From NCBI GenBank assembly GCA_030536755.1, contig JAUNPJ010000014.1:1-60842 (forward strand): 60,842 bases of DNA. Reading direction: 5' to 3'. Shown here piece by piece: positions 40,473 through 60,842 of this stretch. Origin of the DNA: Eubacteriales bacterium. Its GTDB lineage: Bacteria > Bacillota > Clostridia > Lachnospirales > Lachnospiraceae. Position 1 is the first letter of the stretch, and each line of letters starts with the position of its first letter. The position numbers and the translations under genes were made by a program. The notes beneath the pieces are model-generated. The model was not told where the DNA came from and searched no databases. It was given only the letters and a program-made list of their open reading frames with translations.

Positions 40473-42431
40473 ATGCGTGGAAATTCAAAGAGATGCAAAA
40501 AGAAAATGGAACACTGGGAAGTCATTTCCCTGTTATTGATGGTATATGACTTTTTTGCTGTGTCAATATCTTATTTTGCGGCACTTTGGATACGGTTTGA
40601 CTGTAGATTCAGTGCTATAGAGAAGAAATATCTGCTGGCATATTGCCAAACGATTCTTATTTACGCAGCGTTCTGCATTGGTGTGTTCTGGTGTGTGAGG
40701 CTCTATAAAAGCATCTGGCGATTTGCCAGTTATTCCGAACTTCTGAGAGTTGTTCTGGCAACAGCAATTACGGGAATTGTTTATATCGTATGTATGACAG
40801 GTTTCGTATTAAGAATGCCGGTTTCTTATTTTATATTCGGGATTATCATTCAGTTCAGCCTGACGCTGGGGATTCGTTTTTCCTATCGTTTTGTGCTCCT
40901 TTTGAGAGGAGCGAGAAAGGAGCATGAACAGGAAAAGCGAGTGATGCTGGTTGGAGCCGGTGCAGCAGGACAGATGATTTTTCGGGATATCAAAGCTGCC
41001 AAGGAAACAAATGAAAAAGTATATTGCTTCATTGATGACAATCCAAATAAATGGGGCAGATATATTGACAATGTTCCTGTCTTTGGTGGAAGAGACAGCA
41101 TTATGGAAGCTGTTGATAAATTTGGAATTGAAAAAATCTATGTGGCTATTCCGAGTGCGAAACCAGAGGATAAGAGAGATATTCTTCGAATCTGTAATCA
41201 AACCGTTTGTGAGCTTATGAATTTGCCGGGAATGTACCAGCTGTACACCGGAGAAGTAACCGTCAGCAAAATGAAGCCCGTTCAGATTGAAGATCTGCTG
41301 GGCAGAGATCCCATCGAGACGGATATGGACGAAGTATTTGGGTACCTTGTGGGAAAAACGGTACTGGTAACTGGCGTTGGTTCGATTGGCTCAGAATTGG
41401 CAAGACAGATTGCAGCGCATCATCCGAAACATCTGATCCTTTTTGATATTTATGAAAACAATGCCTACGATATTCAGCTGGAATTAAAGAAAAAATATCC
41501 GGAACTGAAGCTGGATACGATTATTGGTTCCGTAAGAGACAGCAGAAAGCTTTTCAAATTGTTTGAAGAATACAAACCGGATATTGTATATCATGCAGCT
41601 GCCCACAAACATGTGCCGCTGATGGAAGACAGTCCATGCGAAGCGATTAAGAATAATGCATTGGGAACTTACAAGACGGCATATGCTGCCATGGCACACG
41701 GATGTAAGAAATTTGTACTGATTAGTACAGATAAGGCGGTGAATCCGACCAATATCATGGGAGCATCCAAGCGCCTATGTGAAATGATCATTCAGGCATT
41801 TGATGCAAAGATCAAAGAAGGAAAAGCCTATGAAATCCCGCAGCTGTTTACGCACGGAATGGATGAGGTGGTTACATCACCGAAAGTAATCGAAGCCTTG
41901 AAAACGACAAAGACAGAATTTGTTGCCGTTCGTTTCGGGAATGTCCTGGGAAGTAACGGGTCTGTAGTTCCATTGTTCAAAAAGCAGATTGAAGCCGGCG
42001 GACCGGTAACGGTCACTCATCCGGATATTATCCGTTATTTTATGACAATTCCGGAAGCGGTAAGCCTTGTACTTCTTGCAGGAACTTATGCAAAGGGTGG
42101 AGAGATTTTTGTTCTGGATATGGGAGAACCTGTGAAAATTGATACTCTTGCAAGAAACCTGATTCGATTGTCCGGATACACGCCGGATGTCGATATAAAA
42201 ATAACATATACCGGGCTGCGAAGCGGCGAGAAGCTTTATGAAGAAAAGCTGATGTCGGAAGAGGGATTAAAGAAGACAAAGAATGATTTGATACATATTG
42301 GATGTCCCATACCATTTGATATTGAGGAATTTTTACAGAAGTTAGATGAACTTTTGGAAGCTGCATATAAAAATAAGGATGATATCAGTGCGAGAGTGCA
42401 GAAAGTCGTATCGACTTATCATCCGGTGTAG
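40473..42431 (+). CDS. PglF/CapD-type UDP-sugar 4,6-dehydratase, membrane-bound
   Basis: 652 residues. Four N-terminal helices (about 18-145), a first Rossmann domain (VMLVGAGAAGQMIFRDIK), and a catalytic SDR domain with YHAAAHKHVPLMED, LISTDKAVNPTNIMGASKR (Thr-Asp-Lys), FVAVRFGNVLGSNGSV and GLRSGEKLYEE. The family makes UDP-4-keto-6-deoxy-GlcNAc. The nucleotide-binding loop reads TGVGSIGSE at about 300-308, one residue shorter than the usual TGAGGSIGSE. Substrate for the aminotransferase at 47811-49088 would be its product. Confidence 0.92.
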   Translation: MRGNSKRCKKKMEHWEVISLLLMVYDFFAVSISYFAALWIRFDCRFSAIEKKYLLAYCQTILIYAAFCIGVFWCVRLYKSIWRFASYSELLRVVLATAITGIVYIVCMTGFVLRMPVSYFIFGIIIQFSLTLGIRFSYRFVLLLRGARKEHEQEKRVMLVGAGAAGQMIFRDIKAAKETNEKVYCFIDDNPNKWGRYIDNVPVFGGRDSIMEAVDKFGIEKIYVAIPSAKPEDKRDILRICNQTVCELMNLPGMYQLYTGEVTVSKMKPVQIEDLLGRDPIETDMDEVFGYLVGKTVLVTGVGSIGSELARQIAAHHPKHLILFDIYENNAYDIQLELKKKYPELKLDTIIGSVRDSRKLFKLFEEYKPDIVYHAAAHKHVPLMEDSPCEAIKNNALGTYKTAYAAMAHGCKKFVLISTDKAVNPTNIMGASKRLCEMIIQAFDAKIKEGKAYEIPQLFTHGMDEVVTSPKVIEALKTTKTEFVAVRFGNVLGSNGSVVPLFKKQIEAGGPVTVTHPDIIRYFMTIPEAVSLVLLAGTYAKGGEIFVLDMGEPVKIDTLARNLIRLSGYTPDVDIKITYTGLRSGEKLYEEKLMSEEGLKKTKNDLIHIGCPIPFDIEEFLQKLDELLEAAYKNKDDISARVQKVVSTYHPV

Positions 42432-47810: not shown

Positions 47811-49088
47811 ATGTTTAAAGGAACAGATATCAAACCGTTTGAATCTAAAGTTTGGCTTGCTAGCCCCACTATGCATGGTGAGGAAATCAAATATGTTCAG
47901 GAGGCATATGACACTAACTGGATGTCCACAGTTGGTAAAAATATAAATGAAGTTGAGAAAATAGCAGCTGAGAAAGCTGAGGTTAAATATGGCGTTGGCC
48001 TTTCTTGTTGTACAGCAGCTCTCCATTTGTGCTGTAAATTAGCTGGTGAAAGATTATATGGAAAACCTGCCATTTCTCATGGAGCTCTTGAAGGGAAAAG
48101 AGTTTTTTGTTCTGACATGACATTTGATGCAACTCTTAATCCTGTGGTTTATGAGGGTGGTATTCCAATCTTCATTGATACAGAAAGAGAGTCATGGAAC
48201 ATGGATCCAGTTGCTCTTGAGAAAGCATTTGAGATGTATCCGGATGTAAAACTCGTTGTGTCTGCAGAGTTATACGGCTTTCCAGGAAGAATGGATGAGA
48301 TTAAAAAGATCTGTGAAAAACACGGAGCGCTTTTAATTGAAGACGCAGCTGAAGCCATGGGAGCAACAATTGATGGCAGACAGTGTGGATCATTTGGTGA
48401 TTATTCTGCCGTGAGCTATAACGGAAACAAGATCATCACAGGATCAGCTGGTGGATGTTTATTAACAAACAGTCTTGAGGACGCAAACAGATCTAGAAAA
48501 TGGGCAACACAAGCTCGTGAAAATGCTGCATGGTATCAGCACGAGGAAGTTGGTTACAACTATCGTATGTCTAATGTGATTGCTGGTGTTATCCGTGGTC
48601 AGTATTTACATCTTGAAGAGCACATTGCTCAGAAGAAAACTGTTTATGAGAGATATGCAGAGGGATTTAAAGGATTACCAGTTAAGATGAATCCTATTAC
48701 AGAAGGGACAGAACCTAACTATTGGCTTAGTGCAATGATTATTTACGAAGATGCTATGTGTAAGCAAGTTCGTGGCGAATGTGATGTTGCGTATATAAAA
48801 GAAGAAGGTAAGACTTGCCCAACTGAGATTCTTGAAGCGATTGCTTCTATTAATGCAGAAGGACGTCCTATCTGGAAGCCGATGCATATGCAGCCAATGT
48901 ACAGAATGCATGAAGTTGTAGGTCGTGAAGGAACTCTTCGTTGCCGTACAAATGCATATATTGCTGGTGGTGTGGAAGATGTCGGTGCTGATATTTTCCA
49001 GCGTGGAGTGTGCTTACCTTCTGACAACAAGATGACAGCAGAGCAGCAGGATAAGATTATTGAAGTTATTAGAGCTTGTTTTGAGTAA
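47811..49088 (+). CDS. DegT/DnrJ/EryC1-family sugar aminotransferase (PglE-like)
   Basis: 425 residues. PLP enzyme with WLASPTMHGEE, YDTNWMST, ALHLCCKLAG, DMTFDATLNPVVYEGGIPIF, LLIEDAAEAMGATIDGRQ and the lysine in SYNGNKIITGSAGG (Lys207). It converts a 4-keto-6-deoxy nucleotide sugar to the 4-amino form and would act after the dehydratase at 40473-42431. It is about 40 residues longer than typical PglE, with an extra GKPAISHGALEGKR segment near residue 90 and another insertion near 330. AGGAGG precedes the ATG by about ten bases. A truncated copy lies at 43516-43785. Confidence 0.93.
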   Translation: MFKGTDIKPFESKVWLASPTMHGEEIKYVQEAYDTNWMSTVGKNINEVEKIAAEKAEVKYGVGLSCCTAALHLCCKLAGERLYGKPAISHGALEGKRVFCSDMTFDATLNPVVYEGGIPIFIDTERESWNMDPVALEKAFEMYPDVKLVVSAELYGFPGRMDEIKKICEKHGALLIEDAAEAMGATIDGRQCGSFGDYSAVSYNGNKIITGSAGGCLLTNSLEDANRSRKWATQARENAAWYQHEEVGYNYRMSNVIAGVIRGQYLHLEEHIAQKKTVYERYAEGFKGLPVKMNPITEGTEPNYWLSAMIIYEDAMCKQVRGECDVAYIKEEGKTCPTEILEAIASINAEGRPIWKPMHMQPMYRMHEVVGREGTLRCRTNAYIAGGVEDVGADIFQRGVCLPSDNKMTAEQQDKIIEVIRACFE

Positions 49089-49115
49089 GAAAAAGCTTGA
49101 GGAGTCATGCATCAT

Positions 49116-49871
49116 ATGAAAACAGATGAGGTTGGAAAAAAGATAGCAGAATTAAGACGTCAAGCTGGATATAGTCAAAAGACTTTGGCAGCTGCATTAC
49201 ACATCACTGATAAGGCTATATCAAAGTGGGAAAGAGGAATTTGTTTTCCGGACGTTTCGCTACTTCCTAAATTGTCAATTCTGTTAGATTCAGACCTGGA
49301 GGTTTTTATATCAGAGGATCTTAAGTGTGAAGAGTGGGTTGGATTGATAGAGATAGATGAGTGCGATTTTTCGCAAATTGTCTATGATAAACCTCTTGTT
49401 TATTATCTGCTGTCTCATTTTTTGTTAGTAGGAATTACGGATATATACATAATAACAAATAAAAAAAATCAACACTATCTGTCAGATGAGAAATTCAAAA
49501 CTTTGGGATTTACTTTTTATTTTGGACAGCCGAATCAGCAACGTGTAATGATATTTAATCATCCGTGGTTTCTTTTTGGTTCTAATTTATCGCAGCAGTT
49601 TTTAGGAGCAATGTCCAGCTGTAGAAATACAAAGCTTGTTCCCGAAAATTTTAGAGAAACAGTGCTATTTGATTATAAAAACAACTATTTTAAAGACAAA
49701 AAGAAGTTTTTACGAACCTCAAAGAAAAGAACTTTGGGGAGAGGGATGGTATGTCTTGATATGAGTGATGCGGATGCAATTCTCGATGCCGCGTCATTTA
49801 TTAAAATGTATCAAAAGCACTCAGGACTGTTAATCGGTAGCTTGGAAGAGATTGTAAAGAAGAAGTCGTAG
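49116..49871 (+). CDS. XRE-type HTH fused to an RmlA-like nucleotidyltransferase fragment
   Basis: 251 residues from the ATG at 49116; an ATG at 49107 sits two bases from GAGGAG. Residues 6-60 are a classic Cro/C1 HTH (IAELRRQAGYSQKTLAAALH, ITDKAISKWERGICFPDVSL). From about 76 on comes a stretch like glucose-1-phosphate thymidylyltransferase (IVYDKPLVYYLLSHFLLVGI, TDIYIITNKK) but without the GGxGTRL nucleotide-binding start. The rest (FYFGQPNQQRVMIFNHPWF, GRGMVCLDMSDADAILDAAS) also follows that fold loosely. A ligand-sensing regulator built on a dead sugar nucleotidyltransferase is a reasonable guess. Confidence 0.7.
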   Translation: MKTDEVGKKIAELRRQAGYSQKTLAAALHITDKAISKWERGICFPDVSLLPKLSILLDSDLEVFISEDLKCEEWVGLIEIDECDFSQIVYDKPLVYYLLSHFLLVGITDIYIITNKKNQHYLSDEKFKTLGFTFYFGQPNQQRVMIFNHPWFLFGSNLSQQFLGAMSSCRNTKLVPENFRETVLFDYKNNYFKDKKKFLRTSKKRTLGRGMVCLDMSDADAILDAASFIKMYQKHSGLLIGSLEEIVKKKS

Positions 49872-50025
49872 AGACGATTTGGTATTAACGCAAAAAGGTA
49901 AACCACAAGTCGGTTGAAATTTAATTGATGACCATATAAAGTTTTGTATGATCCTTGTTTGAAAAGGTGAACTATTAAAATCTAATTTCATAAAAATACT
50001 TTATTTGATAAAGAGGAGAATATAA

Positions 50026-50625
50026 GTGATTATCAGAAAGACAAATTTGATTATTAAACGCTTGATTGATTTTATTGGTAGTAGTTTAGGACTAGTTATT
50101 CTATCTCCAGTTTTTCTTGTGACGATATTTTTATTAGAAATTTTTATGCCTGGGCCAGTGCTTTTTAGACAGCAGCGAGTTGGGGAAAATGGAAAAATTT
50201 TTGATATTCTTAAATTTCGAAGTATGAAGGTTGATAAAGAAGCTGAGAAGAATCATGACTTTTCTAAAGATGAAGAACGAAAGACGCCATTTGGCAACCT
50301 TATTAGAAGATTGAAAATTGATGAATTGCCTCAATTAATAAATGTATTTCGAGGTGATATGTCATTAGTAGGACCTAGACCTACGGTCAAAGAACAAACA
50401 GATTTGTACACAGACTATCAAAGACAACGCTTAAATATGCGACCGGGAATGACGGGATTGGCGCAGGTAAATGGGAATATCTCATTAACTTGGGACGAAC
50501 GTATTGAATATGATGTTGAATACGTTACAAAGTTCTCTATATGGTTAGACTTGAAAATTTTACTGAAAACTGTGGCTGTTGTAATCTGTGGAGAGAATAA
50601 GTTTAATAAGCAGGAAAGGAAATGA
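50026..50625 (+). CDS. small phosphoglycosyltransferase (PglC-like)
   Basis: 199 residues, GTG start with GAGGAG upstream. One N-terminal re-entrant hydrophobic helix (LIDFIGSSLGLVILSPVFLV), then PGPVLFRQQRVGENGKIFDI, LKFRSMKVDKEAE, RRLKIDELPQLINVFRGDMS, LVGPRPTVKEQ and RPGMTGLAQVNG. These are the catalytic Asp-Glu and substrate motifs of monotopic PGTs. It would load the amino-sugar phosphate onto undecaprenyl phosphate. Note the larger enzyme at 38812-40263 already provides such an activity. It is distinctly more A/T-rich than the genes left of 43 kb. Confidence 0.9.
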   Translation: MIIRKTNLIIKRLIDFIGSSLGLVILSPVFLVTIFLLEIFMPGPVLFRQQRVGENGKIFDILKFRSMKVDKEAEKNHDFSKDEERKTPFGNLIRRLKIDELPQLINVFRGDMSLVGPRPTVKEQTDLYTDYQRQRLNMRPGMTGLAQVNGNISLTWDERIEYDVEYVTKFSIWLDLKILLKTVAVVICGENKFNKQERK

Positions 50626-50629
50626 ACAA

Positions 50630-51529
50630 ATGAAATCGGTGTTGATAGGTTCAGTATATTCTAGTCAAATAGTTTTAGAAGAGATGATTTCAAATAATTT
50701 TCCGATTGATATGGTTTTCTCATTAGACGAAGAATATGCTAAAGATGTTTCTGGGTATTGTCCGATTCATGTGACAGCCGAAAAATATAATATTCCTGTA
50801 AAAAAATTTCGGAAAATATCAGATGATGAAAATGTTGAAATTCTTAAAAGAATAAAGCCGGATTATATTTTTGTAATTGGATTGTCGCAATTGATCGATA
50901 AAAGAATATTAGAAATTCCGCTGAAGGGGTGCGTAGGTTTTCATCCTACACCATTACCAAAATTCAGAGGAAGGGCAGCAATGGTATGGCAGGTGCTTTT
51001 AGGAGTTCATGAAACTAAATGTACGATGTTTATGCTGGATGAAGGCATGGACTCTGGAGATATACTCTGCCAACAAGAGTATTTTATCGATGATTCAGAT
51101 TATGCCGATGATGTTGGCGCAAAATTGTTGGAGGCAATACGATTATTAAGTCGAAAGGTTTTTACTGGATTAAAAACAGGTACAATTGTACCTATTAAAC
51201 AGAACGAGGATGAAGCAAGTTATTTACTTATTAGACGTCCTGAAGATGGGCTAATAGATTGGAAAGATTCTATTGAAAATATTCATAGATTAATTAGAGC
51301 TGTATCGCATCCTTATCCAGGAGCGTATGGCATGTATGATGGTATTCATCAAGTGATTATATGGCGTGCAGAAGTTATGAAGAATCATAATATTATTGGT
51401 ATACCTGGACAAATTTGCCGAGTATCAACGGACTCATTTGATATTCTATGTAAGGATGGAATCTTGAAAGTTACAGATTGGGACAATGTAGATAATATTA
51501 AGCTTTTTGTTGGTCATAAGCTAAAATGA
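50630..51529 (+). CDS. sugar N-formyltransferase-like protein
   Basis: 299 residues from the ATG at 50630 (AAGGAA eight bases upstream). Formyltransferase fold: PDYIFVIGLSQLIDKRIL, CVGFHPTPLPKFRGRAAMVW, CTMFMLDEGMDSGDIL and a C-terminal OB-like domain. His105 and Asp141 of the usual Asn-His-Asp triad are kept, but the Asn position (two before His) is Gly103. Family members formylate 4-amino sugars or methionyl-tRNA. With a PIG-L deacetylase next to it and an aminotransferase upstream, a 4-amino-sugar substrate is likely; the missing Asn leaves activity uncertain. Confidence 0.8.
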   Translation: MKSVLIGSVYSSQIVLEEMISNNFPIDMVFSLDEEYAKDVSGYCPIHVTAEKYNIPVKKFRKISDDENVEILKRIKPDYIFVIGLSQLIDKRILEIPLKGCVGFHPTPLPKFRGRAAMVWQVLLGVHETKCTMFMLDEGMDSGDILCQQEYFIDDSDYADDVGAKLLEAIRLLSRKVFTGLKTGTIVPIKQNEDEASYLLIRRPEDGLIDWKDSIENIHRLIRAVSHPYPGAYGMYDGIHQVIIWRAEVMKNHNIIGIPGQICRVSTDSFDILCKDGILKVTDWDNVDNIKLFVGHKLK

Positions 51530-51560
51530 TTTAACTAATATTAATATGGAGATGTAGAGT

Positions 51561-52214
51561 ATGCGAGTATTAGCGTTTGCACCTCATAATGATGATGAAG
51601 TGCTGGGTGTTGGTGGTACTATTGCAAAACTATCAACACAAGGACACGAGATATTTGTATGTGAGGTAACAAGTTGGTTGGAAAATCAAGATGCAACCAT
51701 TGAATTAAAAAAACAAGCTATAGAAGCCCACAATATATTAGGCGTGAAAGAGACATATTTTCTTGATTTGCCAGTTGTCCATTTGAAGGAAACTGCGACT
51801 CATATCAAAAATAAAAAGTTTTGTGAAATAGTAAACGAGGTTAAGCCTGAAATGGCATTTATTCCGCATATTGGAGACATGCATGTCGATCATGCAGAGA
51901 CTGCTATGGCAGCAATGGTTGCATTAAGACCTCTTGAGAATCCGCAGTTAAAGCAGATTTATACATACGAAACACTCTCTGAAACCGAATGGAATCTGCC
52001 CAATGTAGTAAACGGTTTTATTCCAAATGTATGGTGCAATATTTCAGATACATTTGAGAAAAAAGTTGAAGCAATGAAATGTTTTGCCGGACAGTTAAGA
52101 GCATTTCCGCATCCAAGATCAATTGAAGCCATTAATGCATTAGCTCAATTACGAGGATCTACAATAGGTGCAAATTATGCGGAGGCTTTTATGCTAACAC
52201 GTGAGGTGTTTTAA
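51561..52214 (+). CDS. PIG-L family N-deacetylase
   Basis: 217 residues. Starts MRVLAFAPHNDDEVLGVGGT, the PHxDDE zinc motif with Asn in the variable place, and HVDH at 108-111 provides the other ligand. These enzymes remove N-acetyl groups from GlcNAc derivatives. The last base of the stop is shared with the next start (TAATG), so it is coupled to the PglD-like gene. Adjacent formyltransferase and acyltransferase suggest that an amino group is freed here and re-acylated. Confidence 0.9.
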   Translation: MRVLAFAPHNDDEVLGVGGTIAKLSTQGHEIFVCEVTSWLENQDATIELKKQAIEAHNILGVKETYFLDLPVVHLKETATHIKNKKFCEIVNEVKPEMAFIPHIGDMHVDHAETAMAAMVALRPLENPQLKQIYTYETLSETEWNLPNVVNGFIPNVWCNISDTFEKKVEAMKCFAGQLRAFPHPRSIEAINALAQLRGSTIGANYAEAFMLTREVF

Positions 52215-52861
52215 TGAAAAAAATAGCATTGTTTGGAGCTGGTGGTTTTGGAAGAGAAGTTGCATCAATCATCGAAGTACTAAATTCAATATCGCCAGTT
52301 TATGAATTAGTAGGATTTCTAGATGATGGAGCAGGGTTTTCTACAGAGGTTAAAATAAATGGATATCCTTTTCTTGGGAAGAGGGAATGGATATTAGAAC
52401 ATAAAGACGACGTACATTGTGTCTGTACGATTGGTAATTCAAAGATTAGAAGGCAGATTCAAAGGGAGTTAACCGAGCAGGGCGTAAAATTTGAAACAAT
52501 TATAGCTTTTGGAAGTTATATTGGCCCATACACAAAGTTGGGTGATGGCTGCGTGTTATATGGAGGCATTACTGTTTCGGTTAATTGTCAAATCGGTGAC
52601 GGGGTTCTTTTGAATCAGCAGGTTAATATTGGACATGACGTTACGATTGGAGATTTTTCAACAATTATGCCGATGACAGGTATTAGTGGTAATTGCCATA
52701 TTGGTTCTGAGGTTAATATTGGTGGCCATGCTTTTATCATCCCAGGAAAAAAAGTTGGAGATGGGGCTACTATTGCAGCCGGAAGTATAGTATTTGCTAA
52801 TGTAAAAGCTGGAACGACGGTATTAGGTAATCCAGCTAAGAGGATGAGAGAATTAGAATAA
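52214..52861 (+). CDS. PglD/NeuD-type sugar O/N-acyltransferase
   Basis: 215 residues. N-terminal Rossmann-like domain (MKKIALFGAGGFGREVASII, VGFLDDGAGF) and a left-handed beta-helix of hexapeptide repeats (GPYTKLGDGCVLYGGITVSV, QIGDGVLLNQQVNIGHDVTI, GDFSTIMPMTGISGNCHIGS) with the likely catalytic His141 in NIGHDV. PglD acetylates UDP-4-amino-sugars with acetyl-CoA. In this cluster the donor might instead be an acyl-ACP made by the following genes; this is inference from position. Confidence 0.92.
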   Translation: MKKIALFGAGGFGREVASIIEVLNSISPVYELVGFLDDGAGFSTEVKINGYPFLGKREWILEHKDDVHCVCTIGNSKIRRQIQRELTEQGVKFETIIAFGSYIGPYTKLGDGCVLYGGITVSVNCQIGDGVLLNQQVNIGHDVTIGDFSTIMPMTGISGNCHIGSEVNIGGHAFIIPGKKVGDGATIAAGSIVFANVKAGTTVLGNPAKRMRELE

Positions 52862-52874
52862 GGAGATTAGAATC

Positions 52875-53810
52875 ATGAAGATCGCATTATTATTTTCAGG
52901 TCAGGGTGCTCAGTATCCTGGAATGATGAAAGATTTGTACGACACAGAGACTTCTGTGAAAAATGTGTTTGATAACGCAGATGATGCTTTGGGTAGAAAT
53001 ATCTCAACATTATGTTTTGAGGGAACTCAGGAAGAATTAAATCTTACCCATAATACACAGCCTTGTATGCTAGCTTCAGATCTTGCTGCAGCGATGGCTT
53101 TAAAAGAGCATGGTGTGGTAGCGGATGTAGTTGCTGGTTTCTCTCTTGGTGAGTATGCAGCGCTTGCATATGCGAATGCTATAGATCAGAAAGATGTATT
53201 TAAATTAATTCAGATAAGAGCAGATGCAATGCAGGAAGCAGTTGCACCAGGTGAAGGCGCCATGGCTGCATTTGTCGGAGCTACATCAGAGCAGGTTGAG
53301 GATATTTGTTCTAGAGTCACGAAAGGATATGTTGTAGCAGCAAACTATAATAGCCCAGTTCAAACAGTTGTTTCGGGTTCCGCTACCGGTGTAGATGAAG
53401 CTTGTGAATTGGCAGAGAAAGCTGAACTTCGCTGTGTGAAATTAGCAGTAAGTGCACCATTCCACTGTGCATTAATGGAGCCTGCAGCAATAAGACTGGA
53501 AGAAGAGTTCAAAACAATTACATTTGATGATCCGAGTGTACCTGTGTATATGAATGTTGACGGAAATCAATATGTTAAGGGGGATGTTATTGCTGACTTA
53601 TTAGTTAAACAGGCCATGAGTCCAGTTAGATGGGTACAGACTTTAGAAAACATGAAAGAGGCTGGCGTAGATACCTTTATTGAATGCGGTCCAGGAAAAA
53701 CACTTTCTGGATTAGTGAAAAAGACATTAAAGGGAGTAAAAGTATATCGCGTTGAAAATGTAAAAACATTGAACGATACGTTGGAAGCATTAAAAAATGA
53801 AAATTCATAA
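52875..53810 (+). CDS. malonyl-CoA:ACP transacylase (FabD-like)
   Basis: 311 residues, normal length. Starts MKIALLFSGQGAQYPGMMKD, active-site Ser90 in AGFSLGEYAAL, Arg115 in QIRADAMQ, AAFVGAT, VAANYNSPVQTVVSG and His197 in SAPFHCALM. It loads malonyl units onto the carrier proteins encoded downstream. It is the first gene of the acyl module, 14 bases after the PglD-like gene and overlapping the next gene by 14 bases. It is not in the usual fabH-fabD-fabG-acpP fatty-acid operon. Confidence 0.95.
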   Translation: MKIALLFSGQGAQYPGMMKDLYDTETSVKNVFDNADDALGRNISTLCFEGTQEELNLTHNTQPCMLASDLAAAMALKEHGVVADVVAGFSLGEYAALAYANAIDQKDVFKLIQIRADAMQEAVAPGEGAMAAFVGATSEQVEDICSRVTKGYVVAANYNSPVQTVVSGSATGVDEACELAEKAELRCVKLAVSAPFHCALMEPAAIRLEEEFKTITFDDPSVPVYMNVDGNQYVKGDVIADLLVKQAMSPVRWVQTLENMKEAGVDTFIECGPGKTLSGLVKKTLKGVKVYRVENVKTLNDTLEALKNENS

Positions 53811-54417
53811 ATACGACTCTGGGCTTCTTCATTCTTGTATGTATTTCATTGAAGAGAATGGGCATGCAATTGTAATAGACCCGTGTGAGATAACTGATTG
53901 TATTGGTGATAATATTGTGGATTATCTTATCATTACACATGAGCATTATGACCATATCTCAGGGGTAAATAAATGGAAAGATAGAACAGGTGCAAAACTT
54001 ATCTGCAGTGAGAAATGTTCAACTAATATAACTGATTCAAAAAAGAATATGTCCAGATATTTTGATGTGTTCTGTGGAATGCAAACGTGGGTTCCTAGGG
54101 AAGAAATTAAAATTCAAGCTGTGGAATATATCTGTACTGCTGATATAACGTTTAATGATGAGAAAATATTTAACTGGCAAGGGCATACTATTGAACTAAT
54201 GGAACTTCCAGGCCATTCTGAAGGGAGTATAGGTATTTGTATTGATAAAGATCATTTTTTCTCAGGAGACAGCTTATTTGAAAACTATCCGATAGAACTT
54301 AGATTTCCAGGAGGCAGCAAAAAGCAGTGGAATACGAAGGGGAAATTAAGGATAGAAGGATTACCTAGAGGGATAAGAATATGGCCGGGACATTTTGATG
54401 ACTTTATTCTTAAATAA
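53797..54417 (+). CDS. metallo-beta-lactamase-fold hydrolase, possible thioesterase
   Basis: 206 residues. Metal-binding THEHYDHISG (His48, His50, Asp52, His53), His140 in LPGHSEGS and Asp158 in FSGDSLF complete a dinuclear site; the expected final His is in WPGHFDDF. The family covers glyoxalase II-like and polyketide thioesterases. Placed between FabD and KAS III, thioester hydrolysis or editing of carrier-bound acyl groups is plausible. The start lies inside the FabD end. Confidence 0.8.
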   Translation: MKIHKYDSGLLHSCMYFIEENGHAIVIDPCEITDCIGDNIVDYLIITHEHYDHISGVNKWKDRTGAKLICSEKCSTNITDSKKNMSRYFDVFCGMQTWVPREEIKIQAVEYICTADITFNDEKIFNWQGHTIELMELPGHSEGSIGICIDKDHFFSGDSLFENYPIELRFPGGSKKQWNTKGKLRIEGLPRGIRIWPGHFDDFILK

Positions 54418-54438
54418 ATGAAAAGGAGGTAAACGCTT

Positions 54439-55539
54439 ATGGCTTTTTATAATTCAAGTGGAATACAAATAGCTGGTATTGCTTGTTCAGTTCCAGATAA
54501 TTTTGTTACAGTTGAAAGCTTTAAATCAGTGTTTGGTGAGCAAGTACCAGAAAAGTTTTCAGCAGGAACTGGTATTAAATCTATGTTCAAAGCATTGCCT
54601 GAGCAGACTGCCAGTGATCTTGCTGTTGCGGCAGCAGAAAATCTATTTGAACATTCCAGTGTAAAGAAGGAAGAAATAGGCTTATTAATATTGGTAACAC
54701 AGTCGCCGGATTATCGTAGACCGTCAAGTGCAAGCATAGTTCAAAAAGGATTGCATCTTCCTATTGATTGTTCATGTATGGAAATAAATTTAGGGTGTTC
54801 AGGATTTATATACGGACTGCAAACAGCAATGTCTATGCTGCGAGATTCTGAAGAAAAGTATGCACTGCTTGTTATGGGGGAGACGGCTTCAAAATTGGTA
54901 GATCCAAATGATAAATCCATAGTAATGATGTATGGTGATGCTGGAGCGGCTATCCTTTTAGAAAAGAAAGAGTGTGACATAACAAAAACATTGTTAAGAA
55001 GTGACGGAGATCGTTACAGAGCAATAGTTCTTCCGGGCGGAGGTTTTAGAGATATGTATCCACCTAAGGACAGATTCTTATGTGCTGATGATAATGAACG
55101 GTCATTATACGATATTTATATGGATGGAACAGCTGTATTTTCATTTTCTATAACGGATGTACCGCAGACTCTTATGGATTACATGAAACATACTGAAACA
55201 ACAGTGGAAGATTATGATTTGTTTGTGTTTCATCAGGCGAATGAGTTTATTATCAAACAGTTAATGAGAAAATTGAAAATAAAGAAAGATAAGGTTCCGA
55301 TTTCTTTAGATAGATATGGAAATACCGGTGGTATCTCTATACCACTAACTCTATGTAGTGAGTTTGGCGAACAGGCAGATGGAAAATGTTTAAAAACATT
55401 GATGTCTGGATTTGGAATAGGTTTATCTTGGGGAGTTACTAGTTGCCAAATTGATACTAATGTAATCTACCCAATAAACAGGACTAAATATTATTTCAAA
55501 GAAGGAAAGATTACTCGAGAAATGCTTGAGAAGAAATGA
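54439..55539 (+). CDS. KAS III-like ketoacyl synthase, copy 1
   Basis: 366 residues. FabH-type triad: Cys120 in INLGCSGFIYG, His265 in VFHQAN and Asn295 in YGNTGGISIP. LILVTQSPDYRRPSSASIVQ and SGFGIGLSWG also match the family. It condenses an acyl-CoA with malonyl-ACP; some relatives only transfer acyl groups. AAAAGGAGG lies upstream. It has a longer C-terminal tail than FabH. A second, clearly related copy is at 56341-57426. Confidence 0.92.
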   Translation: MAFYNSSGIQIAGIACSVPDNFVTVESFKSVFGEQVPEKFSAGTGIKSMFKALPEQTASDLAVAAAENLFEHSSVKKEEIGLLILVTQSPDYRRPSSASIVQKGLHLPIDCSCMEINLGCSGFIYGLQTAMSMLRDSEEKYALLVMGETASKLVDPNDKSIVMMYGDAGAAILLEKKECDITKTLLRSDGDRYRAIVLPGGGFRDMYPPKDRFLCADDNERSLYDIYMDGTAVFSFSITDVPQTLMDYMKHTETTVEDYDLFVFHQANEFIIKQLMRKLKIKKDKVPISLDRYGNTGGISIPLTLCSEFGEQADGKCLKTLMSGFGIGLSWGVTSCQIDTNVIYPINRTKYYFKEGKITREMLEKK

Positions 55540-55546
55540 GGTTAAG

Positions 55547-56317
55547 ATGAACGATTATTATCAATTAACAGATAAACACTATTTGGTAACTGGTGCAACA
55601 TCTGGAATTGGACGAGAAACAGCAATCATATTAAGCAAGCTGGGTGCAAAGGTTGCAATTCTTGGAAGAAGAGAAGATAAGTTGCAGGAAACTATGGAGA
55701 TGATGGAAGGAACAGGACATGCATCATATGTTGTTGATGTTTCCGACATTGATTCATTAGAAGAGAAAATCAAGACAATTGTTAAGGAGACTGGAGCATT
55801 TGATGGATTTGTTCATAGTGCTGGTATTGTAAAGAATCTACCGATTACCAATTTTAAATATGAACGTCTTCATGAAATTATGTTGACCAATTTTTATTCG
55901 TTTTTTGAAATCACCAGAGTACTGTGTAGAAAAGGAAGATATAACGAAGGGTTTAGCGTAGTTGGAGTGTCTTCAGTGGCTGCCACACATGGTGCAGCTA
56001 CACAATCTGCATATGGCGCTTCTAAAGCGGCAATGAATGGTGCTATGAGATGCCTTGCTAAAGAATTAGGACCTAAGGGAATAAGGTTTAACACAGTTCT
56101 TCCAGCGGCGACTAACACAGAAATGTATAGTACATATATGGCTTTGAAGGCTGATATGAAAGATACGGAAATGAAGATTGAAGCTAATCCAAGACAATAT
56201 TTAGGTATGAATGCTCCAGCGGATGTTGCAAATGCAATTATTTATTTGCTTTCACCATTATCTGGAAAGATTACTGGAGTTCAATTACCTGTTGACGGTG
56301 GATACGCATCTTGCTAA
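55547..56317 (+). CDS. short-chain dehydrogenase, FabG-like ketoreductase
   Basis: 256 residues from the ATG at 55547 (GAGG five bases upstream). Cofactor motif TGATSGIG at 15-22, GRRED suggesting NADPH, SAGIV, and the Ser142/143, Tyr156, Lys160 catalytic set in VSSVAATHGAATQSAYGASK. C-terminal PVDGGYASC is the SDR end. It would reduce the 3-keto group formed by the KAS III enzyme on the carrier protein. No dehydratase or enoyl reductase is present, so the product should remain a 3-hydroxyacyl. Confidence 0.92.
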   Translation: MNDYYQLTDKHYLVTGATSGIGRETAIILSKLGAKVAILGRREDKLQETMEMMEGTGHASYVVDVSDIDSLEEKIKTIVKETGAFDGFVHSAGIVKNLPITNFKYERLHEIMLTNFYSFFEITRVLCRKGRYNEGFSVVGVSSVAATHGAATQSAYGASKAAMNGAMRCLAKELGPKGIRFNTVLPAATNTEMYSTYMALKADMKDTEMKIEANPRQYLGMNAPADVANAIIYLLSPLSGKITGVQLPVDGGYASC

Positions 56318-56340
56318 AGAAGGAAAGGAGAAATAGTAAA

Positions 56341-57426
56341 ATGGTATTTAGTAAGTTCGACGATGTGAAAATTGCAGCAATTGCTGCGGCAGTACCTCAG
56401 AATGTTATTGATATTGAGGCAAAGTTAAATGATCCTGAAGAGGATCCAAAGTTTATTAAACAGTTCATGAAAAACACAGGTATCAAGGCGAAGAGAAGAT
56501 GTGGGTTTGAACAGACTGCATCAGATTTTTCTTATGCTGCTGCAAAGCAGATTATGGATGCTGGTTATTTTACTTCAGATGAAGTTGGTGTGTTAATTAA
56601 TATTACACAGACACCGGATTATAGAACTCCATCAACAGCTATGTTAATCCAGAAGAGATTAGGATTATCCAAGAACTGCCTTGTTTTTGATATCAATTTA
56701 GGTTGTTCGGGATTTGTATATGGTGTTTCTTTGGCAGCAAGTATTTTAAAAACATCAAACGCTACAAAGGCACTTGTTACAGTTGGAGATACTCTTGCTA
56801 GAGGAAGAAAGCATGTAAAAATGAAGCGATCTTCGAATACTGGTCTCTTATTTGGAGATGCAAGTGCAGCAATTTTGCTTGAAAAAGGCTCTGAAAATGG
56901 ATTCTGCTCTGCATTAATGAGTGATGGAACAGGTCATAAAGCATTATCTTCTCCGTACAACGGCTGGAGACATCCAGTAGGACCTGAGAGTATTCCGGGG
57001 GACGATATTGCGGTATTCAACTTTACAATTAGCGAAGTTCCGGCAATTCTCAAGGAGTACATGGAAGTAACTGGAACAGGCACTGATAACTATGATGGAT
57101 TAGTTCTTCATCAGGCAAATATGATGATTTTGAAGAATATTGCAAAGAGAGTTGGAATGCCAATGGATAAGGTTCCGGTATGTTTGGATCGATTTGGAAA
57201 TACTAGTGGATGTTCAGTTCCGCTTGCAATCGTAGATAAATACGGAAAAGACGAAGACGACAAAGTTGTAAATCTGCTTACAAGTTCTTTTGGTATCGGT
57301 CTCTCTTGGGGTGTAGTGGGATTTGAGATTAACACCAAGGATGTACTTCCGTTGATTGAAACAAATGAAACTTATGATGATGGCTATTCAGATGATGTGG
57401 AAATGGACGCTATTATAGAGGATTAA
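56341..57426 (+). CDS. KAS III-like ketoacyl synthase, copy 2
   Basis: 361 residues from the ATG at 56341 (AAAGGAG ten bases upstream; an in-frame TTG 30 bases earlier is less likely). Triad: Cys122 in INLGCSGFVYG, His257 in VLHQANMM and Asn287 in FGNTSGCSVP. It is a paralogue of copy 1 (shared FIKQF-like start, TQTPDYRTPSTAMLIQKR, SSFGIGLSWGVVGFEI). The acidic C-terminal tail DDGYSDDVEMDAIIED is unusual. With two copies, one may condense and the other transfer the acyl group; both keep the full triad. Confidence 0.92.
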   Translation: MVFSKFDDVKIAAIAAAVPQNVIDIEAKLNDPEEDPKFIKQFMKNTGIKAKRRCGFEQTASDFSYAAAKQIMDAGYFTSDEVGVLINITQTPDYRTPSTAMLIQKRLGLSKNCLVFDINLGCSGFVYGVSLAASILKTSNATKALVTVGDTLARGRKHVKMKRSSNTGLLFGDASAAILLEKGSENGFCSALMSDGTGHKALSSPYNGWRHPVGPESIPGDDIAVFNFTISEVPAILKEYMEVTGTGTDNYDGLVLHQANMMILKNIAKRVGMPMDKVPVCLDRFGNTSGCSVPLAIVDKYGKDEDDKVVNLLTSSFGIGLSWGVVGFEINTKDVLPLIETNETYDDGYSDDVEMDAIIED

Positions 57427-57444
57427 TAATAAGGAAAATGAAAA

Positions 57445-57666
57445 ATGACAGAACGTGAAAAACTTGCAATGCTTGAGGAAATGCTGGAACTCGAAGAAGG
57501 AGATCTGACAGCAGACAGATTACTGGAAGATATTGATGAATATGATTCAATGTCTAAGCTCTCTCTTATCGTGCTCATGGACGATGAATTTGGAGTAAAA
57601 CTTACTGGCGATGAAATCAAAGGATTTAATACAGTAGGCGATATTATCGCAAAGATGAACAAATAA
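57445..57666 (+). CDS. acyl carrier protein, tandem copy 1
   Basis: 73 residues, acidic and helical, with the phosphopantetheine serine at Ser35 in IDEYDSMSKLSLIVLMDDEF. DSM replaces the more common DSL. It differs from copies 2 and 3 by one residue (Arg25 for Lys) and a few synonymous bases, so it is the oldest of the three. 18 bases after the second KAS III gene. It carries growing acyl chains as thioesters. Confidence 0.93.
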   Translation: MTEREKLAMLEEMLELEEGDLTADRLLEDIDEYDSMSKLSLIVLMDDEFGVKLTGDEIKGFNTVGDIIAKMNK

Positions 57667-57732
57667 GAATAATTGGATGAATGGCATGGGGATGTAAAAG
57701 TCCTCATGCTATGTAAAAAAGGAGAATGAAAG

Positions 57733-57954
57733 ATGACAGAACGTGAAAAACTTGCAATGCTTGAGGAAATGCTGGAACTTGAAGAAGGAGATCTGACAGC
57801 AGACAAATTACTGGAGGATATCGATGAATATGACTCAATGTCAAAGCTTTCTCTTATCGTGCTCATGGACGATGAATTTGGAGTAAAACTTACTGGCGAT
57901 GAAATCAAAGGATTTAATACAGTAGGCGATATTATCGCAAAGATGAACAAATAA
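57733..57954 (+). CDS. acyl carrier protein, tandem copy 2
   Basis: 73 residues, protein identical to copy 3. Serine 35 in YDSMS is the attachment site. AAAAGGAG precedes the ATG. The intergenic hairpin GCATGGGGA/TCCTCATGC in front of it is repeated before copy 3 and could balance translation or protect the mRNA. Confidence 0.93.
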   Translation: MTEREKLAMLEEMLELEEGDLTADKLLEDIDEYDSMSKLSLIVLMDDEFGVKLTGDEIKGFNTVGDIIAKMNK

Positions 57955-58020
57955 GAATAATTGGATGAATGGCATGGGGATGTAAAAGTCCTCATGCTAT
58001 GTAAAAAAGGAGAATGAAAG

Positions 58021-58242
58021 ATGACAGAACGTGAAAAACTTGCAATGCTTGAGGAAATGCTGGAACTTGAAGAAGGAGATCTGACAGCAGACAAATTACT
58101 GGAGGATATCGATGAATATGACTCAATGTCAAAGCTTTCTCTTATCGTGCTCATGGACGATGAATTTGGAGTAAAACTTACTGGCGATGAAATCAAAGGA
58201 TTTAATACAGTAGGCGATATTATCGCAAAGATGAACAAATAG
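58021..58242 (+). CDS. acyl carrier protein, tandem copy 3
   Basis: 73 residues, identical in protein and, as far as I can see by eye, in DNA to copy 2. It is followed 12 bases later by the divergent fourth carrier protein. Tandem carrier proteins in polyketide and PUFA synthases raise flux, which may be the reason here. Confidence 0.93.
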   Translation: MTEREKLAMLEEMLELEEGDLTADKLLEDIDEYDSMSKLSLIVLMDDEFGVKLTGDEIKGFNTVGDIIAKMNK

Positions 58243-58254
58243 GGTGATGAATGT

Positions 58255-58497
58255 ATGAGTAATATTGAAAAGTATAATGAGATATTTATGCGAGTATTAG
58301 AAGTCCCAGTCAGTGTTCTTGATGAGAACTTTACTTTTAAAGATGTACCACAGTGGGATTCTGTAGCTCATTTATCTTTGATTTCTGAATTAGAAGATGC
58401 TTTTGATGTGTTTTTTGAGTCTGATGATGTACTTCATTATGGATCATATTGTAATGGAATTAAAATACTAGAACGATATGGAGTAGTAATGAATTGA
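58255..58497 (+). CDS. divergent acyl carrier protein
   Basis: 80 residues. Ser36 in VPQWDSVAHLSLISELEDAF is the phosphopantetheine site. The sequence is clearly different from the three tandem carriers, so it may accept a different partner, for example the acyl acceptor or transfer step. ATG preceded by AGGGTGATGA. It is the last gene of the acyl module. Confidence 0.9.
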   Translation: MSNIEKYNEIFMRVLEVPVSVLDENFTFKDVPQWDSVAHLSLISELEDAFDVFFESDDVLHYGSYCNGIKILERYGVVMN

Positions 58498-58526
58498 TTT
58501 TTGTTTTGGGGTAGGTGAGTTGAAAC

Positions 58527-59780
58527 TTGAAAAGATTAGTAACTATAAAAACTAAATATTTCATGATGTGTTTGATGCTATGGTATTTTTGTGATGATGC
58601 AATAATTTCAGGTTTCACGCATTTGCTTGGAGGATATGCGCATTTAATTTGGTTATTTGGATTTGTATGCTTATTTTCGTTTTCTTTAGTTTTTTCTAAT
58701 AAAAACAATTTATTAATTCCAATATGTTTATATGTGTCAATTGTATTTTTAGTTTTATTTACAAGTGTTTTTCATCCGGAGTATGCTGATTGGTTTCATC
58801 ATAGCTATTATAATCTAAACAATATGCTTGTCCATCCGAGAGGTGCTATTTGGGCTTTTATTGTAGTATGGTTAATAGATGATCCTGAAGATATATACAG
58901 TACATTGAGAATTGTGTGTTGGATTCTATTCATCTATTATTTGTTACAGTACGCACAAGCGATGCGTATTGGTTATTGGACAATATATGATATTGATGGT
59001 ACCGAGAGCCAGATGACTTATAATATGGAATTTGGATATGCAATGATGTTTCCTGCTGTTTTTTTTGGAGCAGTTGCTTTTTTAAAAAAAGTTAAGATCT
59101 ATTATTTGTTCTATGCAGTAGCAATGATAACTATTCTTTTAGGGGGGTCAAGGGGTTCTGCAGTTTGGGGAATACTTTTATTTCCAATTATGCTTCCATT
59201 TAAATGGAAAAATTTTACCAAAAAAGAAAGGCATATTTGGTTATTAGCATGTTTTTTCCTTTTACCTTTGGCATACCTAGTGTATAGCTATTTAGATGTA
59301 ATTCAACTTGGCTTATCAGTCGCGTTGTCAGAACATGGAATATCATCAAGGACAATTGAGGCATTGTTTTCGGGTGAATTATCAGATGCAAATGGTCGTG
59401 ATGAAATATACGAGATGGCAATTGACCTTATAAAAACTGGTGGACCGTTTGGGCGAGGAATATATGGAGATCGCATATACATAGGACGCTTTTTTAGATG
59501 GGGATACAGTCATAATGTTATCCTTGAATTGCTTGTAACATTTGGATATGTAGGCGGAAGTGTAATAGTAGGTGCAGTTGTATATGGGATATATAATTTG
59601 TTTCGAAGAGTCACAGGAATCACTGAACAGATTATATTTATAACTTTTTTTGTTACATCTTTAAAACTGATTCTTTCTAACTCGTTTTGGTATGTGCCAT
59701 CTTTTTGGGTAGTATTAGTTTTAATAATAAAATGGAAGACAGGAACGGTAAAACAAAAAAAATTACTTGGAAGTGGTTAG
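58527..59780 (+). CDS. Wzy-like polysaccharide polymerase/O-antigen ligase family membrane protein
   Basis: 417 residues, probable TTG start with AGGTGAG nine bases upstream. Around ten transmembrane helices, with a large loop near 100-160 and GGSRGSAVWGILLFPIMLPF, ALFSGELSDANGRDEIYEMA and FGRGIYGDRIYIG, RWGYSHNVILELLVTFGYVG towards the C-terminus. The GR..I/W....I and HN..L patterns are those of O-antigen polymerase/ligase (Wzy/WaaL). It joins lipid-linked repeat units on the outer face. Confidence 0.82.
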   Translation: MKRLVTIKTKYFMMCLMLWYFCDDAIISGFTHLLGGYAHLIWLFGFVCLFSFSLVFSNKNNLLIPICLYVSIVFLVLFTSVFHPEYADWFHHSYYNLNNMLVHPRGAIWAFIVVWLIDDPEDIYSTLRIVCWILFIYYLLQYAQAMRIGYWTIYDIDGTESQMTYNMEFGYAMMFPAVFFGAVAFLKKVKIYYLFYAVAMITILLGGSRGSAVWGILLFPIMLPFKWKNFTKKERHIWLLACFFLLPLAYLVYSYLDVIQLGLSVALSEHGISSRTIEALFSGELSDANGRDEIYEMAIDLIKTGGPFGRGIYGDRIYIGRFFRWGYSHNVILELLVTFGYVGGSVIVGAVVYGIYNLFRRVTGITEQIIFITFFVTSLKLILSNSFWYVPSFWVVLVLIIKWKTGTVKQKKLLGSG

Positions 59781-59784
59781 AGTA

Positions 59785-60842
59785 ATGAAAAATAGATCGA
59801 CGTATTCATTTAATAATATGATTTGGGGAACTATGTATCGAAGTCTGCGGATGTTTTTTCCGTTGGTTCTTCGAGGTTTTATCATACGTGAGATTGGAGC
59901 GCATTATGTTGGACTTGAAGGTGTTTTTGGCGCGATTCTATCTATATTAAATTTAACTGAACTAGGTTTTGGAACAGCCGTTGTCTTTATGATGTATAAG
60001 CCAGCTGCCGAAAATGATATACCTACTATGCGTATACTCTTGGGAGTGATGCGAAAATTTTATATTATAATTGGCTCTGTAATTCTTGCTATTGGGTGTT
60101 TATGTATTCCAATATTAAATATCCTTGTAAGAAATGATACTGGTGCAAATATGAATATTTATCTATTGTACATCATGTATTTATTTCAAACGGTAGGAAG
60201 CTATTTTAGTTTTGCATATAGATCATCTCTTTTGACTGCATATCAAAGACAAGATGTGATTTTTAAAATATTGTTTTTTACTAGTCTTGTAGAATATTCA
60301 TTAAAAATAGTTATTTTAATTATAACAAAGAACTATTATCTATATATTTTGGTTTTTGCTTTGATGATAATACCTCAGAATATTTGTTATTACATATATT
60401 CTAAAAAAATGTATCCAGATATATATCCTGAGGGAAAACCTACAGCAGAAATGATTAGTACTATAAAAACTAAAATTACTGCACTGATAGGACATAGATT
60501 GGGTGCTACGGTAATGTTTTCAATCGATAGCATTATAATATCTTCATTTATAGGTTTATCTATTCTTGTAAAATATGATAATTATAATGTCATCATGAAT
60601 TCTATAATAACTTTGCTAGGGGTTATTTTGACAAGTTTGGTTGCAAGCGTAGGAAACAAACTTGTATTGGATTCAGTACAAGAGACCTATGGATTGTTTA
60701 AAAGAATCTCATTTCTCTGGATTGCTATAGTGGGTTGGTGTACAGCATGTTTCCTGTCTTTATATCAGCCTTTTATTTCTCTTTGGGTTGGAGAAGAGTA
60801 TTGTTTTGATGAAGGAATTGTAATCTGTATTTGTTTATATTT
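59785..60842 (+). CDS. Wzx-like flippase, partial (continues beyond window)
   Basis: 352 codons visible from the ATG at 59785, four bases after the polymerase stop. MKNRSTYSFNNMIWGTMYRS, REIGAHYVGLEGVFGAILSI, LNLTELGFGTAVVFMMYKP and further hydrophobic helices match the polysaccharide exporter (PST/MVF) family. It moves the lipid-linked repeat unit across the membrane. With Wzy next to it and two initiating transferases, a Wzx/Wzy pathway is complete apart from glycosyltransferases, expected downstream. Confidence 0.88.
   Translation, partial: MKNRSTYSFNNMIWGTMYRSLRMFFPLVLRGFIIREIGAHYVGLEGVFGAILSILNLTELGFGTAVVFMMYKPAAENDIPTMRILLGVMRKFYIIIGSVILAIGCLCIPILNILVRNDTGANMNIYLLYIMYLFQTVGSYFSFAYRSSLLTAYQRQDVIFKILFFTSLVEYSLKIVILIITKNYYLYILVFALMIIPQNICYYIYSKKMYPDIYPEGKPTAEMISTIKTKITALIGHRLGATVMFSIDSIIISSFIGLSILVKYDNYNVIMNSIITLLGVILTSLVASVGNKLVLDSVQETYGLFKRISFLWIAIVGWCTACFLSLYQPFISLWVGEEYCFDEGIVICICLY

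Follow-up and report, generated by a model that had tools for sequence, protein, structure and literature searches.

The window analysed here is the whole of contig JAUNPJ010000014.1 (60,842 nucleotides) from the Eubacteriales bacterium assembly GCA_030536755.1, a member of the Lachnospiraceae. Within a polysaccharide locus on this contig, a block of genes at 52214..58497 encodes a sugar acyltransferase and a set of acyl carrier protein (ACP)-dependent enzymes; the block, the PglF/CapD-like dehydratase and every gene described below from the aminotransferase onward lie on the + strand. At slightly better than even confidence, we read the block as a glycan-dedicated ketide assembly line of discrete (type II) enzymes that acylates an amino sugar. 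A sequence-only reading of the window had proposed a dedicated acyl-ACP pathway to an acylated amino sugar. That remains the best reading, although the single-round product then envisaged is replaced by a two-round, six-carbon (C6) one.

FabD, a metallo-β-lactamase (MBL)-fold hydrolase and two β-ketoacyl-ACP synthases III (KAS III) had all been read from the letters, and NCBIfam or Pfam matches place each of them in the block. The first gene (52214..52861) encodes a PglD-type left-handed β-helix (LbH) N-acyltransferase (TIGR03570, 183 bits against a cut-off of 161), the proposed acyl-transfer step, whose GHD-motif histidine is kept in alignments with five solved relatives, including VioB, and with 16 locus proteins. 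FabD, the malonyl-CoA:ACP transacylase, follows (52875..53810; TIGR00128, 290 bits against a cut-off of 261). The MBL-fold protein (53797..54417; PF00753) has the metal-ligand motif THEHYDH together with H140, D158 and H199; the ligands are the same in all 15 aligned rows, and its AlphaFold2 (AF2) model has a predicted local distance difference test (pLDDT) score of 91.7. We propose that it acts as a thioesterase or editing enzyme. The two KAS III proteins (54439..55539 and 56311..57426; both PF08545/PF08541), assigned below to clades K1 and K2, are the candidates for a first and a second condensation. Between them lies a FabG-like short-chain dehydrogenase/reductase (SDR) of clade S2 (55526..56317), which matches PF13561 (176 bits) and PF00106 and contains the YxxxK motif. 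The SDR is listed with a TTG start, for which an ATG at 55547 is likelier, and for K2 an ATG at 56341 is likelier.

The best Pfam family of the SDR, PF13561, carries the description enoyl-ACP reductase, although this family spans a broad range of SDRs. In NCBIfam a subfamily named for glucose 1-dehydrogenase scores highest (168.5 bits, cut-off 215), with FabG models next. As all of these matches fall under their cut-offs, the label FabG-like, already given to the protein by the sequence-only reading, is fair but unspecific, and we infer a ketoreductase role from the sequence. In keeping with the earlier reading, which saw neither enzyme, a scan of the 15 main + strand proteins between 47811 and the end of the contig found no dehydratase, nor any clear enoyl reductase, so the growing chain would be expected to keep its oxygens.

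The Cys-His-Asn triads noted earlier for the two synthases are present, and the three motifs occur in both window KAS and in all 20 close KAS (19 of these aligned; the K1 of locus L014 enters the trees and the motif count only). Condensation is therefore expected of each. Against the curated FabH model TIGR00747, the window KAS score 191 and 162 bits and miss its cut-off of 292. Using E. coli FabH numbering, we take Trp32, Arg36 and Arg151 to be CoA contacts, with Trp32 and Arg151 at the adenine, and Arg249 to serve in ACP docking. The genome's own FabH keeps these residues; in the module KAS, Trp32, Arg36 and Arg249 are each found in 0 of 19 sequences and Arg151 in 1 of 19. This loss would fit ACP-borne donors and another ACP partner. 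The fit is only suggestive, since by eye Trp32 is missing too from the solved KAS III proteins 4efi and 3gwa and its loss looks like a trait of the class; the same comparison weakens the idea that losing the CoA contacts is specific to the module.

Four carrier proteins had been counted in the block and four are present, but in truth they comprise three near-identical copies of one class and a single member of another. The class-a copies (57445..57666, 57733..57954 and 58021..58242; PF00550, with Ser35 invariant) form a tandem array with a 288-bp unit and a 98% match. Copies 2 and 3 have the same sense codons throughout, and the units of copies 1 and 2 are separated by 9 base differences, of which 7 are coding; the array thus looks recent. 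The divergent second carrier (58255..58497), which we call class 4 and which contains WDSVAHLSL, has no Pfam or NCBIfam match. It aligns with ACPs, the serine being invariant, and its AF2 model (pLDDT 90.3) is an ACP-like four-helix fold (helices 3-15, 36-50, 56-60 and 65-74) in which Ser36 begins helix II. By modelled fold and serine, we class it as an acyl carrier protein. Relatives at 59-78% identity occur in 10 of 10 close loci, and, as judged from the sequences, both carrier classes are present at each close locus. Identity to the window's first class-a copy is 22-26% for the class-4 rows and 22-24% for the genome's three other PP-binding stretches. Two class-a copies each are found in L016 and L024.

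The block looks dedicated because copies of FabH, FabD and ACP exist elsewhere in the genome. A K1 search of the genome found three places: K1, K2 and one other KAS III, the FabH on contig C138, which is 31% identical to K1. A second FabD, 44% identical to that of the block, lies beside an ACP on contig C112, and further PP-binding proteins are encoded on contigs C112, C42 and C22. The genome is a draft of 3.84 Mb in 145 contigs, with a completeness of 99.99 and a listed contamination of 5.12%. Since dnaA, dnaN and a RecF/SMC-type gene lie on the window contig, at 23.6-27.7 kb, we regard it as chromosomal and set aside the possibility that it is a stray piece.

The sequence-only reading had proposed a search for the same block in other Clostridia glycan loci; its core is kept at ten related Clostridia-type loci beside sugar transferases. 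Scanning 84,980 species genomes with K1, an approach that detects only close relatives, yielded nine loci at 68-72% identity; a family search added L024 at 62%, with weaker matches (37-41%) in three further genomes. Across the window and its ten relatives, the core comprises a class-a ACP, a class-4 ACP and a SugT-type transferase (11/11 each), the MBL protein (10/11) and FabD (9/11). L017 is without MBL and FabD, and L024 is without FabD in the stretch read. The relatives are labelled mostly Clostridia or Bacillota; L010, L016 and L017 come from goat or sheep gut, and L013 bears an unconfirmed Chloroflexi label. Profile searches found matches in the order (9 of 392 genomes, E 1e-100), the class (7 of 381, 1e-110), the phylum (4 of 398, 1e-90) and the family that includes G652 (1 of 23), and a single-sequence search matched 5 of 397 genomes of the window's family (1e-60). 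These genome counts overlap in their draws, and all except that for the G652 family include the window's own genome. A search of plasmids (363 records) returned only relatives below 60% identity. L047 is counted as L011 and the G879 match as L017, neither twice; L025-L027 enter the trees and stand outside the 11-locus counts, as do L036, L037, L048-L050 and L063-L065. In a text-pattern check of the triad, L026_Kb and L027_Kb were without all three motifs, L025_Ka was without the Cys motif and L026_Ka without the Asn motif.

KAS number varies among the 11 loci, with one in four, two in five (including the window) and three in two. Trees of the KAS resolve three clades. K1 (support 99/98) is present in all 11 loci and always comes first; K2 (99/99) is found in the window, L010, L012 and L013; and K3 (82/56 alone, 89/88 together with L027) is found in L009, L010, L012, L016 and L024. 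The order K1-K2-K3 holds in seven of seven multi-KAS loci, an outcome with a chance of about 1 in 1,150 under random positions and independent loci, which these loci are not. The underlying KAS and SDR order lists were compiled by hand, minus the ACPs, a KAS remnant in L024 and a downstream SDR, 'Sdn'. The SDR clades tend to go with particular KAS clades: S1 comes directly after K1 in all four S1 loci (L009, L010, L012 and L016), S2 directly before K2 in all three S2 loci (the window, L010 and L013), and S3 is present in five of five K3 loci, beside K3 in four of them and beside the K3 remnant in L024. An SDR of another clade lies upstream in the one-KAS loci L011, L014 and L017, and one of yet another clade lies downstream in L011, L014, L015, L017 and L024.

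Traces of exchange are visible within this arrangement. The second KAS of L012 is a K3/K2 chimera, its N-terminal part 76% identical to K3 and 46% to K2 and its C-terminal part 81% identical to K2 and 45% to K3; none of the 8 other K2 and K3 sequences shows this pattern. At L024:8680-9118, a 65-residue remnant of a second K3 lies beside an extra class-a ACP, a decayed tandem duplicate. On the K1 tree, most of whose branches are weak, KAS number changes at least three times. Taken together, the clade pairing, the chimera, the remnant and the changes in KAS number indicate, at the level of sequence, that KAS-SDR cassettes have been gained, lost and recombined inside one conserved frame.

From the gene content, active-site residues and neighbourhood observed, and from the separate FabH, FabD and ACP copies, we infer the following reactions. 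FabD would load malonyl onto the class-a ACPs, whose triplication may raise the supply of malonyl-ACP. K1 would form acetoacetyl-ACP, the S2 ketoreductase would reduce it, and K2 would add a second malonyl unit to the chain. Reduction would then yield 3,5-dihydroxyhexanoyl-ACP; were the one SDR to act only a single time, the outcome would be a partly reduced C6 acid. A starter or hand-off role may fall to the class-4 ACP, and the MBL enzyme could clear mis-acylated ACP. PglD would acylate the amine of a UDP-4-amino-6-deoxy sugar (bacillosamine type) supplied by a PglF-like dehydratase and an aminotransferase. A PIG-L protein and a formyltransferase may swap the other N-acetyl for N-formyl, and the acylated sugar would start or join the Wzx/Wzy repeat unit. 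We predict that the window directs the N-linkage of a 3,5-dihydroxyhexanoyl group to a bacillosamine-type sugar; a product in the 3-hydroxy-5-oxo or 5-hydroxy-3-oxo form is also possible.

The C6 3,5-dihydroxyacyl prediction follows from the match, at two KAS to one SDR, between the window and the parts list of Flavobacterium psychrophilum. The O-polysaccharide of that bacterium has 3,5-dihydroxyhexanoyl on D-Qui2NAc4N, a group whose synthesis its authors attribute to two KAS, a single reductase, an ACP and a PglD homologue; the assignment (wfpC-wfpG plus pglE/pglF) is their prediction from gene content (PMC6519341). Like that system, the window has two KAS with triads, an SDR, dedicated ACPs, a PglD with its catalytic histidine and a Wzy-dependent locus. 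The window's candidates for the dehydratase and the aminotransferase are of fitting families, with scores under the equivalog cut-offs. Unlike the window, F. psychrophilum is Gram-negative, and the excerpted text of PMC6519341 gives one ACP and mentions no FabD or MBL; the likeness drawn here is one of parts list. In Vibrio cholerae O3 the same diamino sugar likewise bears a 3,5-dihydroxyhexanoyl group, of undetermined configuration, at its C-4, and (S)-3-hydroxybutyryl is found on bacillosamine in other polysaccharides (PMC3210612). These are known as structures, and the excerpt of that source names no biosynthetic genes for them.

The sequence-only reading had pointed to a Pseudomonas viosamine island as precedent, rightly so, but only one KAS is present there. 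In Pseudomonas syringae, the KAS III vioS, the reductase vioR, an acp and a VioB-type transferase go with an N-(3-hydroxy-1-oxobutyl) amino sugar, viosamine, and vioR was tested by mass spectrometry of a mutant (PMC3927599). Besides its one KAS and one ACP, the island differs from the window in serving a flagellin glycan, in using a dTDP sugar and in its seven-gene list, which in the excerpted text is without FabD or MBL. Its pattern (vioA-M-T-S-B-R-acp, with a single KAS, vioM and a vioT of 1,173 aa) is not that of the window, which has two KAS, and no methyltransferase or vioT-sized protein was found among the 15 main proteins scanned at 47811-60840.

In the relatives, the number of KAS genes (1, 2 or 3) may set the number of C2 units and hence a C4, C6 or C8 chain. 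We advance only tentatively, and with clearly less confidence than our main reading, a colinear scheme in which one to three interchangeable KAS-SDR cassettes would yield 3-hydroxybutyryl, 3,5-dihydroxyhexanoyl and 3,5,7-trihydroxyoctanoyl groups for the amino sugars of surface polysaccharides in rumen and gut Clostridia, the cassettes being duplicated, lost and recombined to change the cell surface in the manner of modular polyketide synthases. Ketosynthase-ketoreductase-ACP sets, cassette duplication and chimeric ketosynthases are features of modular and type II polyketide synthases, as here. The block differs from them in its separate KAS III proteins rather than KAS I/II, its short products and its sugar acceptor. 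A literature search for 'trihydroxyoctan' gave matches on purple carrot and Amycolatopsis metabolites and, by listing, none on polysaccharides.

Several observations weigh against this account. With two KAS and one SDR in the window, full reduction of the two ketones needs either an SDR that acts twice or outside help. The relation between KAS number and chain length has only two anchors, P. syringae and F. psychrophilum, the latter itself predicted from gene content. SDR pairing is loose: S1 is missing in 7 of 11 K1 loci and S2 in 1 of 4 K2 loci (L012), and L015 has S3 but no K3. A PglD like that of the window (44-67%) is found in only 6 of 10 relatives. At L010:7080-8369, L013:1119-2404 and L016:7139-8429, it is replaced by a tandem pair of PglD-like β-helix proteins, both without the catalytic histidine, and L015 has no PglD in the stretch read. 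AMP-ligase genes occur at five close loci (L011, L014, L015, L017 and L024), which suggests a ligase-loaded acid there; as another SDR accompanies the ligase, the class-4 ACP may be the carrier so loaded in those five. Beyond the close clade, in L063, a K3-like KAS (46%) precedes a K1-like KAS (48%), and we reject strict KAS order as a general rule on the strength of this counterexample. Lastly, an ACP-KAS-SDR trio at L064:8385-10428 lies outside any obvious glycan cluster, among neighbours of unknown type and open reading frames that look transposase-like by eye. L065:9608-11645 holds such a trio too, and the trio may serve other products. In the window genome itself, no relative of the L011 AMP-ligase was found at E 1e-10, and ligase loading was set aside there; five AMP-binding proteins are encoded elsewhere in that genome.

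Dedicated acylation of an amino sugar is strengthened by the conserved neighbourhoods, the retained PglD histidine and the presence of phosphopantetheinyl transferase (PPTase) or LpxD-like genes in some relatives. Each of the distant loci L036 and L037 groups two KAS and an SDR with an ACP, a PPTase, a PglD-like protein and an aminotransferase in a single cluster, and L036 additionally holds FabD, PIG-L, a formyltransferase and an LpxD-like protein. LpxD-like N-acyltransferases are encoded at L011:5360-6289, L014:5360-6289, L017:5805-6734 and L036:13657-14580, with PIG-L in the same loci. Against the subfamily model NF002060 (cut-off 207), the L011 (209) and L036 (235) proteins score high enough and that of L017 (199) does not; all three fall short of the LpxD equivalog TIGR01853 (204, 235 and 206 against 242.5), and the L014 protein is identified by its 99.7% identity to that of L011. 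Polysaccharide loci of these relatives thus appear to hold a logic like that of LpxC and LpxD in lipid A acylation, a deacetylase with an LbH N-acyltransferase, for which the window has PIG-L and PglD instead. Together with the L036 and L037 clusters, the LpxD-like genes provide the strongest indirect evidence for amino sugars as the destination of ACP-borne acyl groups. An LpxD route was set aside for the window genome, where the L011 LpxD-like query matched only PglD. Of three regions read from the plasmid search, two are Parabacteroides distasonis glycan loci (L028:6462-11140 and L029:4940-10056) annotated with a KAS III, an SDR, an AMP-binding protein, an acetyltransferase and two carrier proteins. 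The acetyltransferase is 31-33% identical to the window PglD, one carrier is class-4-like (39-48%), and L028 has a KAS-like fragment at 10826-11140.

Among other explanations, the one that survives best is a single round of elongation, in which K1 and the SDR would make 3-hydroxybutyryl-ACP and K2 would provide a second starter, another acyl group or redundancy. In L011, L014, L015 and L017, K1 is the sole KAS and is accompanied by ACPs and one or more SDRs, and a single KAS is enough in P. syringae. We nevertheless think this unlikely: K2 keeps its Cys, His and Asn and sits beside an SDR of its own clade in three of four K2 loci, and two or more KAS recur in L009, L013, L016, L024, L036, L037 and L063. 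The glycan setting would be incidental if the genes made a free lipid or secreted small molecule, as the L064 trio might be taken to show. That the SugT-type transferase lies near the block in every close locus makes this improbable, as do the scanned flanking genes (10 genes at 7 loci), all glycosyltransferases, Wzy, flippases or AMP-ligases, and the position of the block directly after PglD on the same strand; the failure to find a predicted + strand terminator between 50026 and 59780 adds weak evidence to the same effect.

A slightly smaller chance attaches to K2 (or K3) acting as an acyltransferase of KAS III type, which would hand the completed chain to a sugar or another acceptor and form no C-C bond. 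Some KAS III relatives, such as CerJ, are acyltransferases, and nearly all 19 aligned K1, K2 and K3 rows have lost the FabH CoA residues. The Asn of KAS III, however, serves decarboxylative condensation and is kept in all 20 close KAS, and the window already has an LbH acyltransferase. A spare fatty-acid initiation set is very improbable, for although the FabD and KAS III families are common to fatty acid synthesis, no dehydratase or clear enoyl reductase was found among the scanned proteins of the block, its KAS have lost FabH-type CoA contacts, and other copies exist in the genome.

The assembly line we favour sits in the second half of a polysaccharide locus of Gram-positive type that starts at 34 kb of the window. 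The first half contains a CpsB/CapC-type protein, a chain-length protein, a tyrosine kinase, a LytR-CpsA-Psr protein, a priming transferase, a PglF/CapD-like dehydratase and a LoaP-like antiterminator, several of which score under their NCBIfam cut-offs. The dehydratase (40473..42431; 652 aa) is a putative nucleotide-sugar 4,6-dehydratase (PF02719, 377 bits, plus PF13727; best NCBIfam match FnlA/PseB-like, under cut-offs) that likely makes the UDP-4-keto sugar. A stretch of small open reading frames separates this half from the second, in which the order is aminotransferase, helix-turn-helix gene, small priming sugar transferase, formyltransferase, PIG-L, PglD, FabD, MBL, KAS, SDR, KAS, three ACPs, the fourth ACP, Wzy and a Wzx-like gene. 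Between the halves, we also noted two similar proteins (44051-44608 and 44845-45483) with a hydrophobic start, a VGPGD motif and no Pfam match.

The aminotransferase (47811..49088), of the DegT/DnrJ/EryC1 family and LegC/PseC-like, likely makes the 4-amino sugar (PF01041, 220 bits; TIGR04181, 270 bits against a cut-off of 420), and has relatives at 59-64% identity in L009, L010, L011 and L017. For the PglF- and PglE-type genes alike, the Pfam families fit and every NCBIfam equivalog is under its cut-off; the dehydratase precedes the aminotransferase by about 5 kb. A fragment at 43519-43773, 82% identical to the aminotransferase over 85 residues, is likely the remnant of a second copy. An initiating phosphoglycosyl transferase of small, PglC-like size (Bac_transf; 50026..50625; PF02397, 221.5 bits) is followed by a sugar N-formyltransferase-like protein of ArnA/Fmt fold (50588..51529; PF00551 and PF02911; ArnA-type PRK08125, 156 bits, under cut-off), with a 49% relative in L036, and by the PIG-L de-N-acetylase (51561..52214; PF02585), with relatives at 48-49% in L011, L014 and L017 and at 38% in L036. 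The acyl block is thus flanked by the initiating sugar transferase on one side and Wzy and Wzx-like genes on the other. Of the Wzy and Wzx neighbours named by the sequence-only reading, the Wzy polymerase (58527..59780) matches PF04932, but the probable Wzx flippase (59767..60840), cut by the contig end and multi-membrane by eye, matches no Pfam family even at E 10 and is assigned from its look and position.

The sequence-only reading had regarded a Gram-positive gut version with tandem ACPs as new, and we found no description of a Gram-positive version among the matches listed in open PMC text. In ropy Lactiplantibacillus plantarum, a strain-specific region contains ACP, 3-oxoacyl-ACP reductase and synthase II genes, which the excerpted passage does not tie to the cps cluster (PMC10100969). 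If our reading is true, the acyl decoration of Gram-positive gut polysaccharides would be readable from the number and type of KAS in a genome, and unusual polyhydroxyacyl sugars would be predictable. It would also link polyketide-style assembly to surface glycan variation, with the number of discrete ketosynthases perhaps setting chain length.

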